Below are positions 48,479 through 52,359 of a stretch of DNA of 64,000 nt, one piece after another (position 1 is the first letter of the stretch; each line of letters starts with the position of its first letter). The translations under genes and the position numbers were made by a program. Source of the stretch: Pseudomonadota bacterium (GTDB lineage: Bacteria; Pseudomonadota; Gammaproteobacteria; Halothiobacillales; Halothiobacillaceae); assembly GCA_021801265.1 (NCBI GenBank), contig JAJYYE010000001.1:372001-436000 (forward strand), written 5' to 3'. The notes beneath the pieces were generated by a model, which was not told the origin of the DNA, searched no databases, and saw only the letters and a program-made list of their open reading frames with translations.

Positions 48479-48958
48479 ATGCCGACATTCATTAATGAAC
48501 TTCATTATGACAACGCCTGTACAGATGCGGGCAAAGCTTTTGAAGCTTCTGATCCGACGGGGCCGGATTTAATTTGAGTAATTTGCAAAACCGGGCTGAT
48601 ATTCACTACCCTGAGCCCGGTTCTGACTACCGATAAGATGCGGTGCATGGGTACGAGTCCGGGAATTACCAATGTAATCGGTGTGATTGATGACGCGTCC
48701 GGTGCGTACGGAATCCAGCCGACGACCCCGCGTACCTACCCCGAAATCAATCCGAGAAAAGATCATCCCCCTATTATTCCGCATGCGATGCTGTCCACCG
48801 GCAGTTTCAATGTGCTCAATGACTTCACTGGCATTTCATCTTGGCTCGTACCTGCGCTGGCGCCACCTTTTGCCACTCGGAAGCGCAAACAAAATGCGCA
48901 AGCCCTAAACTGGATTTATTCAGAGGAGTACGCAGCTACTGGTGTCGAAGATTTTTAG
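48479..48958 (+). pseudogene. Decayed extracellular endonuclease (ExeM/NucH type)
   Basis: One plus-strand frame carries three pieces of a secreted nuclease in the right order. First is MPTFINELHYDNACTDAG, like the lamin-tail opening FINEIHYDN. After a stop at about 48577 comes FTTLSPVLTTDKMRCMGTSPG with GVIDDASGAYGIQPT, like GVVDYSFGNYRLQPT. Then comes GSFNVLNDFT, like the ASFNVLNYFT that opens the catalytic domain. The spacing is far too short, so large internal pieces are lost, and the rest of the catalytic domain is absent. The remaining 48156-48478 shows no gene. Confidence 0.55.
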
Positions 48959-48963
48959 CCAAT

Positions 48964-49019: not shown

Positions 49020-50312
49020 TTAAAACATGGCAGTAACCTGCAGCGCCACCAAGCCTTTCACGCCTTTGAGTTGATTATTAACGGCTATCGCGTCGGAGTT
49101 GTAATCGCGCGTTGAGTAATCCAACGTCACCCGCGTTTTCGGATTGAAATGGTATTGCACACCGGCGGTCCAGGTATTGAAGCGGGTTTCAATGGGTAAA
49201 TCCGTGTTGCGCACATATTTGTCATAGCGCAAATCCAGCTCCCATTGGCTGTTCGGAATAAACCAGCCACCTTCGATATACCCCCCGTTGGCCTTATTGT
49301 TGTTAAACAGGGTTTGGGGATTATTGGCGCCCTGATAAATCATACCCTTACCCCACATGTATTCGGCGGTCATACGAAAGGGTTTTTTGAGGTAAGACAC
49401 ACCCGCGCCATAACGTTTGCGATCTTGCTCTTGCGTCGCGTTGTAGGCATTGGTGCGTTTGCCGGCTTGATACCAGGAAAACAGTTTGACGCTTGGGCTC
49501 ATCGGCCCCTTGTTTTTCAGATCAAATAAATACGCTGAAGACCAATACAGATAGAGATCTTTATGACTATTGTTATCGGCCATTTGCACCCCTTGACCAT
49601 TGCCCAGCATCACCGCGTAGGTGTGCTCCCAACTGCCCACATCAAAGGCATCAAACAGCTGGATGCCCGTATCTCTAAAGCCACTGCTGGGTTTTGAGAA
49701 GCCATTCAGACTCGCGTTGGGCGTGCTCTGCGGGAGAATGTTCAGATTGCCCGCAGTCGGATAGCGCTCCAGCAGCAATTGATTGGTGACGTTGGTGTAA
49801 TTGATGTAATTCAAGGAATTAATCCCCTGAAGTCCTTCTTCGGCACCAGGATATTTGAACAAACCCAGCCGCGCCCGCAGACCTTTGATGTAATTCAGGG
49901 TCACACTGGCGTCCGTGAGATAGGGACGATAGCTGCCATAACGCCCGCCGTTGGTGATGGAGTTATTACCAAATTCAGCCATGATGAAGTAGTTGATTTT
50001 GTCATCGAGCGAAAAAGGTGCGCCGCGTGCACCGACGCGCGCCCGCAGAATATTGAACGAGGATTGGGTATCCAAATTTGGCCCAATGAGCTTGGGAGAT
50101 GAATACTTCCCATTAAAAGAATCACTAAAATCCTTTTGGTACGTGGGCTGGATAAATCCAAAAATTTTCACCGGCGGCGCAATACCCGGTTGCTCGGTAC
50201 CTTGAAGCATTAACCAGTTGGCGGCAAAGGCGTGGGGCGCGGTTAAAAAAAGGCTAGTGCATAAACTGGCGAGCGCGATTTTTTTGGATAGGTTCTTGGT
50301 TTTTTTATTCAT
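49020..50312 (-). CDS. Outer-membrane porin, phosphate-selective-porin-like
   Basis: The 430-residue protein has a clear signal peptide (KKIALASLCTSLFLTAPHAFA). Long amphipathic beta strands with alternating aromatic and polar residues follow, ending in a terminal Phe (LQVTAMF) as used by the outer-membrane assembly machinery. The features resemble the OprO/OprP (phosphate-selective porin) group, but the substrate cannot be read. It follows the secreted DsrE-like gene by 25 bases, so the two form an operon divergent from the ECF sigma gene. Confidence 0.8.
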   Translation of the reverse strand: MNKKTKNLSKKIALASLCTSLFLTAPHAFAANWLMLQGTEQPGIAPPVKIFGFIQPTYQKDFSDSFNGKYSSPKLIGPNLDTQSSFNILRARVGARGAPFSLDDKINYFIMAEFGNNSITNGGRYGSYRPYLTDASVTLNYIKGLRARLGLFKYPGAEEGLQGINSLNYINYTNVTNQLLLERYPTAGNLNILPQSTPNASLNGFSKPSSGFRDTGIQLFDAFDVGSWEHTYAVMLGNGQGVQMADNNSHKDLYLYWSSAYLFDLKNKGPMSPSVKLFSWYQAGKRTNAYNATQEQDRKRYGAGVSYLKKPFRMTAEYMWGKGMIYQGANNPQTLFNNNKANGGYIEGGWFIPNSQWELDLRYDKYVRNTDLPIETRFNTWTAGVQYHFNPKTRVTLDYSTRDYNSDAIAVNNQLKGVKGLVALQVTAMF

Positions 50313-50337
50313 GACTGATTTCCTGTTTTATTTAATT

Positions 50338-50817
50338 TTATGGTCGAGAGACGAAATAACCGGCTTTATTCAACTCAACGAGCCGAACAATACCGGCAGG
50401 CACGATTTTCGCCACCGGCGACAATTCAGGCACGTGACCCAATGTTTTCGTCATTGCTGCGATGGTGTTGTCGCAGGCGCTGAATCGAACGCCCTCGGCG
50501 GATAACGACTGAATCTGATCCTCCAGCGCGTTATTTTTGAACAGCAAACGCAGCCCAGGCCCAAAAGCCACCACCTCGATATCGACTTTATCCGCGCCAT
50601 AAAACTTGAGCAGATTGGCCGCGACATTGAGCACAAGTTGCTGTTTGTCGCCACTGCCATCACTGATTTGCAGGGCAACCCGTGCAACGGCGAAGGGTTT
50701 ATCTTGCACAGCCTGGGAAATGGGTTCTGCAGCGGGATTGGCCATGACCGATGGTGCCGCGCTCATCAGCGCGACCATCAACGCGGCGATGGCCGCGTGT
50801 TTTCTAAAATGCGACAT
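50338..50817 (-). CDS. Secreted DsrE-like protein
   Basis: Started at ATG 50817 (GAGGA upstream) the protein has 159 residues with a signal peptide cleaved near SVMA-NP. The mature part is a DsrE/DsrF-like (COG1416-type) fold: an opening beta strand AVARVALQISDG, IEVVAFGPGLRLL, then GVRFSACDNT with a single Cys115, and IVPAGIVRLVELNKAGY. The Cys sits where DsrE-family proteins bind sulfane sulfur. It is probably a periplasmic sulfur-binding or carrier protein. It heads an operon with the porin. Confidence 0.82.
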   Translation of the reverse strand: MSHFRKHAAIAALMVALMSAAPSVMANPAAEPISQAVQDKPFAVARVALQISDGSGDKQQLVLNVAANLLKFYGADKVDIEVVAFGPGLRLLFKNNALEDQIQSLSAEGVRFSACDNTIAAMTKTLGHVPELSPVAKIVPAGIVRLVELNKAGYFVSRP

Positions 50818-50904
50818 ACAATTCCTCGTGGTTGAAAATACGTTTTTCATGCCACCGTTATTCAGCGGGGCTATTTGATATGACGCCCTGGTTTTTTTAT
50901 TTAT

Positions 50905-50925
50905 TCCATTGGAAAAATTAATGGA
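50905..50925. promoter_or_regulatory. Candidate operator between the divergent DsrE and sigma genes
   Basis: TCCATT, nine bases, AATGGA is an inverted repeat inside an AT-rich 184-base divergent spacer. It may be a regulator site or the target of the ECF sigma factor. No standard sigma-70 promoter is obvious here. Confidence 0.4.
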
Positions 50926-51001
50926 TGAATTTAAATTTTCGCGACTTTATCGGGAATAAAATCGGACAGGATTTCGTCAATCATGGTTAGATAGGTCCAA
51001 T

Positions 51002-51598
51002 TTGCACGGGGGTAAGAATAAATTGGGTATTTCCTCTTTTTTATTTGGGCGATTGACCTTCAACAATCGCCTGGAACAGCTTCGCCCCCGACTCTATCGG
51101 TTGGCTTTTTCGTGGTGCAAAGAATCTTTTTTAGCGGAAGACCTGGTACAGGAAGCCATGATTCGCGCATTACAAAAACAAACCCAACTTCGGGAAGATG
51201 CGCTCTTGGATCGTTGGGTGATCCGCATTCTGGCGAATCTTTGGATGGATCACATCCGCAGCCATGTGCGCGACGAGAACATCGACGACGTCGCTGATGC
51301 GCTCTCTGTGGATGAAAATCAATCGCCCGACAGCATTCATGGACGCGATGAAATGATCGAACGTGTGCGTCATGCGGTGATGCGCCTGCCGGAAATGCAG
51401 CGCATCATCGTCACCTTGGTTGATCTGGAAGAGTTTGCCTACAAAGAAGTGGCGACCATTTTGGATTTACCGATCGGCACCATCATGAGCCGCTTGTCGC
51501 GGGGACGCCAAGCGCTAAGAAACCTATTGATCGACGGCGCCAAAGCCGAATCTCAAGAGCGCATCAAAACCGAGTGCCGCCTGAGGAGGGTGATATGA
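51002..51598 (+). CDS. ECF-type RNA polymerase sigma factor
   Basis: The protein of up to 198 residues has sigma region 2 (RLYRLAFSWCKESFLAEDLVQEAMIRAL, DRWVIRILANLWMDHIR) and region 4 (MRLPEMQRIIVTLVDLEEFAYKEVATILDLPIGTIMSRLSRGR). Regions 1 and 3 are missing, as in ECF factors. The start is unclear: the frame opens with TTG at 51002 and has another TTG at 51023; no ATG fits. It overlaps the anti-sigma gene by ATGA and diverges from dsrE-porin, its likely targets. Confidence 0.88.
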   Translation: MHGGKNKLGISSFLFGRLTFNNRLEQLRPRLYRLAFSWCKESFLAEDLVQEAMIRALQKQTQLREDALLDRWVIRILANLWMDHIRSHVRDENIDDVADALSVDENQSPDSIHGRDEMIERVRHAVMRLPEMQRIIVTLVDLEEFAYKEVATILDLPIGTIMSRLSRGRQALRNLLIDGAKAESQERIKTECRLRRVI

Positions 51599-52359
51599 AT
51601 TACGCCCACAGCAACACACTGGACGCCGCCGCCATTTCCGCCGAGGAAATCAATGCCTTTATTGACGATGAATTGATCCATGAAGATCGCCAGCGTGTGC
51701 GCGAGGGGATCAAAAAAAATCCTGAGCTAACGCAATTAATTTGCGATATTGATCAAGTGCAGGATTGGGTTCGCGAGGCATACCAAACAGTGCCCGAACC
51801 CAAACGGTTCCGCACAAAATGGCGCATGCACGTTATCACACCCGGTGCACTCGCAGCCGCGGCACTCTTGACGGTTGGCGCCTTGGCAGGGTGGTTTGCC
51901 GGCAAACTCACCACGCCCGCTATGAATGCGGCCACCGCTGTCCCGATGCTGCAAGCCAACCGTGAGCAATCCGTCGATTTTAACAGCCCGGCCGCACTGT
52001 CACGTAACGTCATACTCCGGCTGGGCTCCGATTCTCCAGAAAAATTCAGGAAAACCTTAACCGTAGTGGAGCACCTGCTCAAAACGTCGGCGCATGAGCC
52101 CGGCTTTCAGCTAGAAGTCCTGACCAACTCGGATGGGTTAAATTTTTTGCGGGCGGATACCTCACCCTACGCCCAGCAAATTGAGGCATTGATGACGAAA
52201 TATCCCAACGTACACTTTATGGTGTGCGGCACCAGCGTGAAAAATCTGGAAAAATCTGGCGCCAAACTGAATTTACTGCCCAATGTCACGGTGACGTCCT
52301 CCGCCGTCGAGCAGGTCGCAAAACGCGTCCGGGAAGGCTGGACCTATTCCGCGATTTAA
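51595..52359 (+). CDS. Anti-sigma factor with periplasmic DsrE-like domain
   Basis: From the ATG at 51595 (GGAGG upstream) it has 254 residues. Residues 15-65 are an anti-sigma head (AEEINAFIDDELIHEDRQRV, VQDWVREAY) without the zinc HxxxCxxC motif. One membrane helix lies at 84-104. The periplasmic part (135-254) reads like a DsrE domain: NVILRLGSDSPEKF, FQLEVLTNSDGLNFL, VHFMVCGTSVKN with Cys211, VTVTSSAVEQVAKRVREGW. This parallels the secreted DsrE-like protein encoded next door. It should hold the sigma factor until the DsrE part senses something, perhaps a sulfur species. The sensing role is inference. Confidence 0.85.
   Translation: MNYAHSNTLDAAAISAEEINAFIDDELIHEDRQRVREGIKKNPELTQLICDIDQVQDWVREAYQTVPEPKRFRTKWRMHVITPGALAAAALLTVGALAGWFAGKLTTPAMNAATAVPMLQANREQSVDFNSPAALSRNVILRLGSDSPEKFRKTLTVVEHLLKTSAHEPGFQLEVLTNSDGLNFLRADTSPYAQQIEALMTKYPNVHFMVCGTSVKNLEKSGAKLNLLPNVTVTSSAVEQVAKRVREGWTYSAI

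Follow-up and report, generated by a model that had tools for sequence, protein, structure and literature searches.

An extracytoplasmic function sigma factor paired with a DsrE-type anti-sigma factor: a candidate sulfur-response unit of Gammaproteobacteria

To our knowledge, the sensing of thiosulfate, sulfide or polysulfide by sulfur oxidisers outside the cytoplasm is largely an open question. The persulfide regulators SqrR, BigR, CstR and FisR are cytoplasmic, and a periplasmic sensor based on a sulfur-carrier relay is not known to us. Control of sulfur genes by extracytoplasmic function (ECF) sigma factors is on record: according to the available text of two reports, sulfite dehydrogenase is under ECF control in S. 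meliloti (RpoE1/RpoE4) and S. novella (SigE), the systems being induced by sulfur compounds, e.g. thiosulfate or taurine; the signal proposed there is sulfite, and the sensing mechanism of these sulfite-responsive pairs is stated to be unknown (PMC3511301, PMC6527743). In Arcobacter butzleri, the ECF factors sigma2 and sigma7 are described, in the excerpts at hand, as regulating sox genes in opposite ways (PMC3445524). Among DsrE proteins, DsrE3A of Metallosphaera cuprina forms a Cys-S-thiosulfonate from tetrathionate and hands it over to TusA and, in the sections at hand, is reported to be unreactive with NaSH, polysulfide, glutathione persulfide, thiosulfate and sulfite (PMC4175335). Here we describe a four-gene unit at positions 49020-52359 of a 64-kb window (the whole stretch of DNA analysed, G000 C8:372001-436000) from a 2.66-Mb genome, which consists of an ECF sigma factor (SIG), an anti-sigma factor with a periplasmic DsrE-like domain (ANTI), a secreted DsrE-like protein (DSRE) and a porin. 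The computed evidence comprises the gene order, the fold, the homology between both DsrE domains, an invariant single Cys, a shared promoter, a strong association with genomes that encode sulfur oxidation and a linkage to sox genes in some of the relatives; taken together, these make it probable that this is a dedicated trans-envelope sulfur-response unit.

ANTI (51595-52359, plus strand) is a single-pass membrane protein of 254 amino acids, the start codon of which (ATG 51595) overlaps the stop codon of SIG as ATGA and is preceded by a ribosome-binding site, GAGGAGGG. In the AlphaFold model, made from an alignment of 26 sequences, three N-terminal helices (residues 16-23, 29-41 and 43-64) are followed by one long helix (residues 78-104; 51826-51906) compatible with a transmembrane span, a low-confidence linker (residues 107-133) and a domain that is well defined from about residue 136 (block means 88-97 from residue 141). 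Basic residues precede the long helix in the sequence, so that the positive-inside rule predicts an N-in, C-out topology. The three helices make up the putative cytoplasmic anti-sigma part (residues 16-64; 51640-51786), which matches no Pfam anti-sigma model; the fold comparison took residues 133-254 only. In Class I anti-sigma domains, sigma2/sigma4 are clamped by a bundle of three helices together with a linker helix. The original prediction had noted that the anti-sigma factor lacks a zinc motif, and HxxxCxxC was found in 0 of 112 distinct ANTI relatives (129 matches above 150 bits, less 17 duplicates; weaker matches, e.g. the incomplete L075 with 118 bits, were excluded), which rules out an anti-sigma factor of the zinc-binding or zinc-redox type (ZAS).

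The periplasmic domain (residues 136-254; 52000-52356) folds like DsrE/MTH1491, as had been supposed from the letters. Its model superposes on 1l1s over 110 residues (Z 17.8, root-mean-square deviation 1.8 A), and on other solved DsrE-family structures with Z 17.2 (2pd2), 13.6 (YchN, 1jx7) and 12.4 (DsrEFH chain A, 2hy5_A). DSRE matches MTH1491 by sequence (3.6e-7), and its model (predicted local distance difference test 93) has a template-modelling (TM) score of 0.93 to 1l1s; thus, when models are compared with solved structures, a DsrE/DsrF-like fold is found in both the ANTI domain and DSRE. By sequence, both score below the gathering threshold of 22.7 bits of the Pfam DsrE model PF02635 (18.8 bits for ANTI and 20.8 bits for DSRE). 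The ANTI and DSRE families are homologous (hhalign probability 99.83%, E 7e-30), with Cys211 of ANTI aligned on Cys115 of DSRE, and the solved relatives MTH1491 and ST0148 carry a Cys at the corresponding position.

Both of these residues had been numbered correctly in the original prediction, and both are strictly conserved. Cys211 (codon 52225-52227, plus strand), the only Cys of the periplasmic domain, is kept in 112/112 distinct relatives and is the sole Cys of the last 135 residues in all 112; 25 aligned relatives show no more than 21-72% identity to the window protein. Other conserved residues of ANTI in the same set are Gly181 (109), Gly248 (107), Trp249 (111) and Tyr251 (110). Similarly, Cys115 (codon 50473-50475, minus strand) is the only Cys of DSRE in the window; exactly one Cys is present in the last 115 residues of 134 of the 134 distinct DSRE proteins (matches above 60 bits), and it is kept in all distinct relatives examined. 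A lone Cys that is never lost implies that no disulfide forms within the DsrE domain and would suit a thiol that receives an external group.

The two operons are divergent, with SIG-ANTI on the plus strand and DSRE-porin on the minus strand. The positions of the four genes were as originally predicted, but the start codons of two were revised: SIG, whose open reading frame (ORF) is open from TTG 51002, probably starts at TTG 51023, where its homologues begin (51023-51598), and comparison with relatives moves the probable start of DSRE from 50850 to ATG 50817. DSRE (50338-50817) is a protein of 159 amino acids with a signal peptide predicted from its sequence. The porin (49020-50312, minus strand), 25 bp past DSRE in the same operon, is an outer-membrane protein of the Porin_O_P family (PF07396; 2.4e-12, 47.2 bits, gathering score 20.9). 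Its identification as ExtI, the porin of a selenite/tellurite reduction operon, is ruled out by a score of 33.4 bits against a cut-off of 150. In SIG, Pfam identifies sigma region 2 (1.7e-12) and region 4 (r4_2, 8.9e-14), the only matches above cut-off, the others being two helix-turn-helix models far below theirs; among the NCBIfam matches listed (25 of 93 families), the sole ECF model passed is TIGR02937, the sigma70-ECF superfamily (74.4 bits, cut-off 42.9), and named ECF equivalogs (PRK12511, GFO_1088, SigW, RpoE and others) are missed, the closest with 113.5 bits vs. a cut-off of 185 and 111.3 vs. 130. Next to the unit, at 48480-48960 of the window, lies a frame-broken remnant of an extracellular nuclease of the ExeM/NucH type, in which a 106-amino-acid ORF (48638-48958) scores 26 bits against NF033681 (cut-off 300, E 4e-6); just upstream of that ORF we read NELHYDN, which we take to be a motif of this nuclease type.

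The 205 bases between the probable starts of SIG and DSRE contain GGAATA-N16-CGTCA twice, once in each direction, i.e. a predicted ECF promoter for SIG-ANTI at 50953-50979 (plus strand) and one for DSRE-porin at 50881-50907 (minus strand), and these are the only matches to the loose form of the pattern on either strand of the window. The motif was recovered without prior knowledge by counting pairs of 5-mers and 4-mers at spacings of 14-19 in 72 divergent intergenic regions of relatives (144 strands, some genomes being counted twice with the same contig in two collections). The top-ranked pair, GAATA-N16-CGTC, was present on 66 of the 144 strands, whereas no pair exceeded 7 when the single bases were shuffled three times. 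The consensus of the relatives is TGGAATAAA-N13-C(G/A)TCT, with 16, at times 15, bases between GGAATA and CRTC. Of 104 distinct non-truncated loci, 73 have the loose pattern upstream of SIG, compared to 0 when the sequences are reversed. Moreover, the −10 variants (CGTC or CATC) of the SIG and DSRE promoters agree in 35 of 38 distinct loci (SIG/DSRE: 30 G/G, 5 A/A, 3 A/G and 0 G/A), and such matching change would follow from the reading of both promoters by a single sigma factor.

Few if any further targets are indicated in the source genome. None of the six other matches to the strict pattern GGAAYA-N16-CGTC precedes a same-strand gene start, as judged from the ORF layout. The looser pattern has 20 places in this genome vs. 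3 in the reversed control; for the 18 that lie outside the unit, a rough calling of ORFs of at least 90 amino acids gave no same-strand ORF start within 350 bp downstream, and 13 fall inside a longer ORF. A wide regulon in this genome is thus rejected, and the unit looks autoregulated. In a search of 57 genomes with a stricter, exact pattern, G001, G002, G018, G021 and G022 have matches genome-wide at these two promoters only, and other genomes have chance-like matches elsewhere, some of them in the absence of the unit; the source genome has none, as its sites end in CGTCA. SIG very probably controls its own operon and DSRE-porin from the two predicted promoters, and DSRE-porin looks to be its main, perhaps its only, other target in the source genome, which makes the sigma target named in the original prediction a likely one. 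A second DsrE paralogue of the source genome (C8:601953-602408; L072:7897-8469), with an N-terminal hydrophobic stretch and 45% identity to DSRE, has no sigma factor beside it and no promoter pattern upstream; similar copies are present in G001 and G004.

ANTI is matched in 31 of 96 near genomes, in some by the DsrE domain only. In an even sample of 369 genomes of Gammaproteobacteria, the class of the window, the ANTI profile finds 123 at 1e-8, although among the matches listed many of the weaker ones extend over the DsrE part only, and a full-length ANTI is present in 66, a set read by eye from the match list. In a phylum-wide sample, ANTI was found at E <= 1e-30 in 5 of 249 genomes including the source genome; beyond these 5 there were one full-length match (G592, of the same class) and three partial ones. 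A SIG homologue adjoins ANTI in 105 of the 112 distinct relatives and in 58 of 63 of the distinct set found with ANTI, in which 57 loci are not truncated; of these 57, 45 have the promoter, 36 have a divergent DSRE or porin and 32 have DSRE. Searching instead with an alignment of 17 DSREs from ANTI loci gave 382 relatives, the best 80 of which have SIG or ANTI in 60 loci and a porin in 74; the 60/80 is biased upward by this origin, and 36/57 is the fairer figure. By their record titles, these best 80 include Halothiobacillus, Guyparkeria, Thiogranum, Thiohalobacter, Sedimenticola, Thioalkalivibrio and Acidiferrobacterales, along with two metagenome-assembled genomes titled Geobacteraceae and Phycisphaerales; the Thioalkalivibrio locus shows neither SIG nor ANTI on a short contig. 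The gene set was traced to many other genomes with sulfur-oxidation genes, a check that the original prediction had proposed.

Several variants of the layout were seen among these loci. In two (L042 and L043, from G007 and G005), the DSRE-porin pair divergent from a single SIG-ANTI is present twice in tandem, and a solute-binding protein follows. An extra DsrE-like protein of about 162-170 amino acids lies between SIG and DSRE in L089, L094, L096, L098, L100, L112, L135, L145 and L148, and that of L089 clears the Pfam DsrE cut-off with 48.6 bits. In L232 and L238 (G252 and G136), two SIG-ANTI pairs stand in tandem on the same strand, one with a DsrE protein of its own after it, which suggests duplication and possible cross-talk.

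The genomes that encode a full-length ANTI are enriched for genes of sulfur oxidation. Among the 369 Gammaproteobacteria, SoxY is present in 58/66 ANTI genomes vs. 132/303 others, DsrA in 51/66 vs. 67/303 (matches at E <= 1e-30, including fragments under the cut-off, with oxidative and reductive dsrA pooled), and at least one of the two in 64/66 vs. 137/303. Urease, taken as a control, did not differ significantly (21/66 vs. 74/303, p = 0.22; 7 of the 95 urease genomes are under the cut-off of that family). In the source genome, SoxY is present and the dsrA-type match is weak and below the cut-off (E 2.6e-15), so that thiosulfate chemistry would be the likelier setting there.

In some relatives, the unit is linked to sox genes. 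In G182, SIG, ANTI, a cytochrome c in the position of soxX, soxY, soxZ, soxA and soxB follow one another on one strand behind the sigma promoter (the first four genes after ANTI were called by Pfam, whereas soxB was recognised from its 58% identity with SoxB from G192). G292 has SIG-ANTI followed on one strand by soxYZAB in the same order, according to tblastn and the ORF layout. In G192, a DSRE gene comes after soxYZAB (SoxB equivalog score 830 bits, cut-off 550), with its promoter match inside the end of soxB; a small ORF, a solute-binding protein gene and then the unit itself lie beyond it. The gene downstream of the divergent promoter encodes a SoxB-like phosphoesterase in G109 (175 bits) and in G125 (101 bits), both below the same cut-off. 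No further soxYZAB match was obtained from the other loci among the 158 neighbourhoods scanned, in which some contigs are doubled. Homologues of the solute-binding protein occur near the unit in 12 loci (10 distinct contigs) within the stretches examined, and in L121, L123 and L263 the sigma promoter lies 69-75 bp before the aligned start of an SBP_bac_11-type protein; proteins of this type are located at L263:7427-8383 and L266:4592-5626. Together with the genome counts, the linkage to sox genes makes a sulfur role of the unit well supported. In L245, L246 and L252, SIG-ANTI lies near a groEL-fxsA-cutA-dsbD row, annotated in L246 only; dsbD and cutA are not claimed as targets, the loose match there being perhaps due to chance (density of about 0.04 per 500 bp).

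Several observations weigh against a dedicated sulfur-response unit. Among the 57 non-truncated loci, 21 have no divergent DSRE or porin and 12 lack the promoter pattern, so that the target set varies among relatives. Exact promoter matches also occur in ANTI-negative genomes of the pattern search (e.g. G042, G053 and G056), G005 and G007 have the unit, yet their exact matches are only elsewhere in the genome, and the strict pattern is found at 8 places in the source genome vs. 12 for its reversed form. The test of −10 covariation (CATC vs. CGTC, Fisher p = 1e-4) ignores kinship, as do the genome counts for sulfur genes and urease. A solute-binding homologue was not found in the source genome by a search without a positive control, and this protein is accordingly rejected as a general component.

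We infer the ligand, the loading of Cys211, the exchange of sulfur from one DsrE domain to the other and the way in which the sigma factor is released as follows. In the resting state, ANTI would keep SIG at the membrane, with its DsrE domain presenting the thiol of Cys211 where a strand ends and a helix begins. A reactive sulfur species in the periplasm, conceivably a thiosulfonate derived from thiosulfate or tetrathionate, a polysulfide or a persulfide, would load Cys211 directly or by handover from secreted DSRE. Because DsrE3A is reported not to react with the five other sulfur compounds named above, tetrathionate or a bound thiosulfonate is placed ahead of sulfane sulfur as the candidate, although the signal at Cys211 may be sulfane sulfur, thiosulfate, tetrathionate, or another oxidant or metal. 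Loading would alter the sensor or its oligomer such that SIG is freed, via proteolysis or rearrangement, and free SIG would read the two back-to-back promoters with their identical −35 and −10 elements, raising its own operon and DSRE-porin. The porin would then admit a sulfur anion, and secreted DSRE would bind or relay its sulfur and could set feedback on the ANTI sensor. In full, then, a sulfur carrier would have become a transmembrane receiver: across sulfur-oxidising Gammaproteobacteria, a periplasmic DsrE sensor would take a covalent sulfur adduct on a single Cys, probably from a self-induced secreted DSRE, and in this way inform an ECF sigma factor of inorganic sulfur outside the cell, a scheme that we put forward tentatively, as possible rather than probable.

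Other readings of the same observations have to be weighed. Given that a lone Cys suits any thiol chemistry, ANTI could be a thiol-redox or thiophilic-metal sensor, with Cys211 answering oxidants, disulfide stress, selenite/tellurite, arsenite or copper; Cys211 might then be joined to Cys115 of DSRE in a mixed disulfide, with DSRE and the porin serving as a detoxification pair. The resemblance of the porin to ExtI would fit, as would the location of the G230 pair near groEL-fxsA-cutA-dsbD (G158 and G106 are alike by ORF sizes only), but the likeness to ExtI misses its cut-off, and the presence of SoxY or DsrA in nearly all ANTI genomes, together with the soxYZAB and SoxB-like neighbours, points to sulfur oxidation instead, so that we consider such a sensor fairly unlikely.

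DsrE-family proteins form oligomers. Secreted DSRE might accordingly act as a regulator comparable to RseB or to an anti-anti-sigma factor, co-assembling with ANTI, in which case the signal would be the occupancy or abundance of DSRE and not sulfur on Cys211. The homology of DSRE to the ANTI domain, the co-location with SIG or ANTI in 60 of the best 80 (of 382) DSRE-found loci and the feedback that a shared promoter type would give are all compatible with this; however, 25 of the 57 non-truncated ANTI-found loci have no divergent DSRE, and the single, never-changing Cys of both proteins would be left unexplained, which makes this arrangement unlikely in our judgement. Pairs of ECF and anti-sigma factors that control porins are known, and SIG-ANTI could be an ordinary envelope-stress pair that regulates a porin, the DsrE-like domain being structural only and its Cys buried. 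Invariance of that Cys in 112/112 relatives despite 21-72% identity, the paired secreted DSRE and the linkage to sox genes make this very unlikely.

The sulfur-response reading brings together one invariant Cys in a domain of known sulfur chemistry, coupling to a sigma factor and, apparently, a two-promoter regulon, and such a clean two-promoter output could also be put to use in sensing sulfur as a biosensor. Sulfur genes under ECF control are already known; what we could not find described is a DsrE-type sensor domain on a pair of ECF and anti-sigma factors. A literature search that lay outside the main ECF classification paper returned no description of a DsrE-fused anti-sigma factor, and the earlier remark that no ECF group of this architecture has been described was left uncontradicted by the portions of the literature it covered; a numbered ECF group for SIG may exist already.

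Compared with the ECF26 systems (RpoE1/RpoE4 and SigE), the unit shares, as far as the available text describes them, an ECF sigma factor with a co-transcribed anti-sigma factor over a periplasmic sulfur function; the target there is sulfite dehydrogenase, and DsrE goes unmentioned for the anti-sigma factor in that text, whereas here the target would be DSRE-porin and, in some relatives, the sox genes as well, judging by gene order. Sigma2 and sigma7 of A. butzleri are likewise ECF factors and are reported to regulate sox genes, but they are two opposing factors, and DsrE is mentioned 0 times in that paper (PMC3445524). The porin has partial profile similarity to ExtI and, being under the cut-off, is not a member of that family. 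DsrE/MTH1491-like proteins and DsrE3A, as described in the sections at hand, share with ANTI and DSRE the fold and a Cys of the active type; DsrE3A differs in having two relevant Cys (C93 and C101) and TusA as a partner, whereas here one DsrE is a secreted protein and the other forms the sensor end of ANTI. Finally, ANTI resembles Class I anti-sigma factors without a zinc motif, of the RseA and RskA type (outlined in the available part of PMC7406223), in its modelled N-terminal helices, single transmembrane helix and periplasmic C-terminal domain, and it differs from them in the nature of that domain, which is of the DsrE type and carries an invariant Cys.

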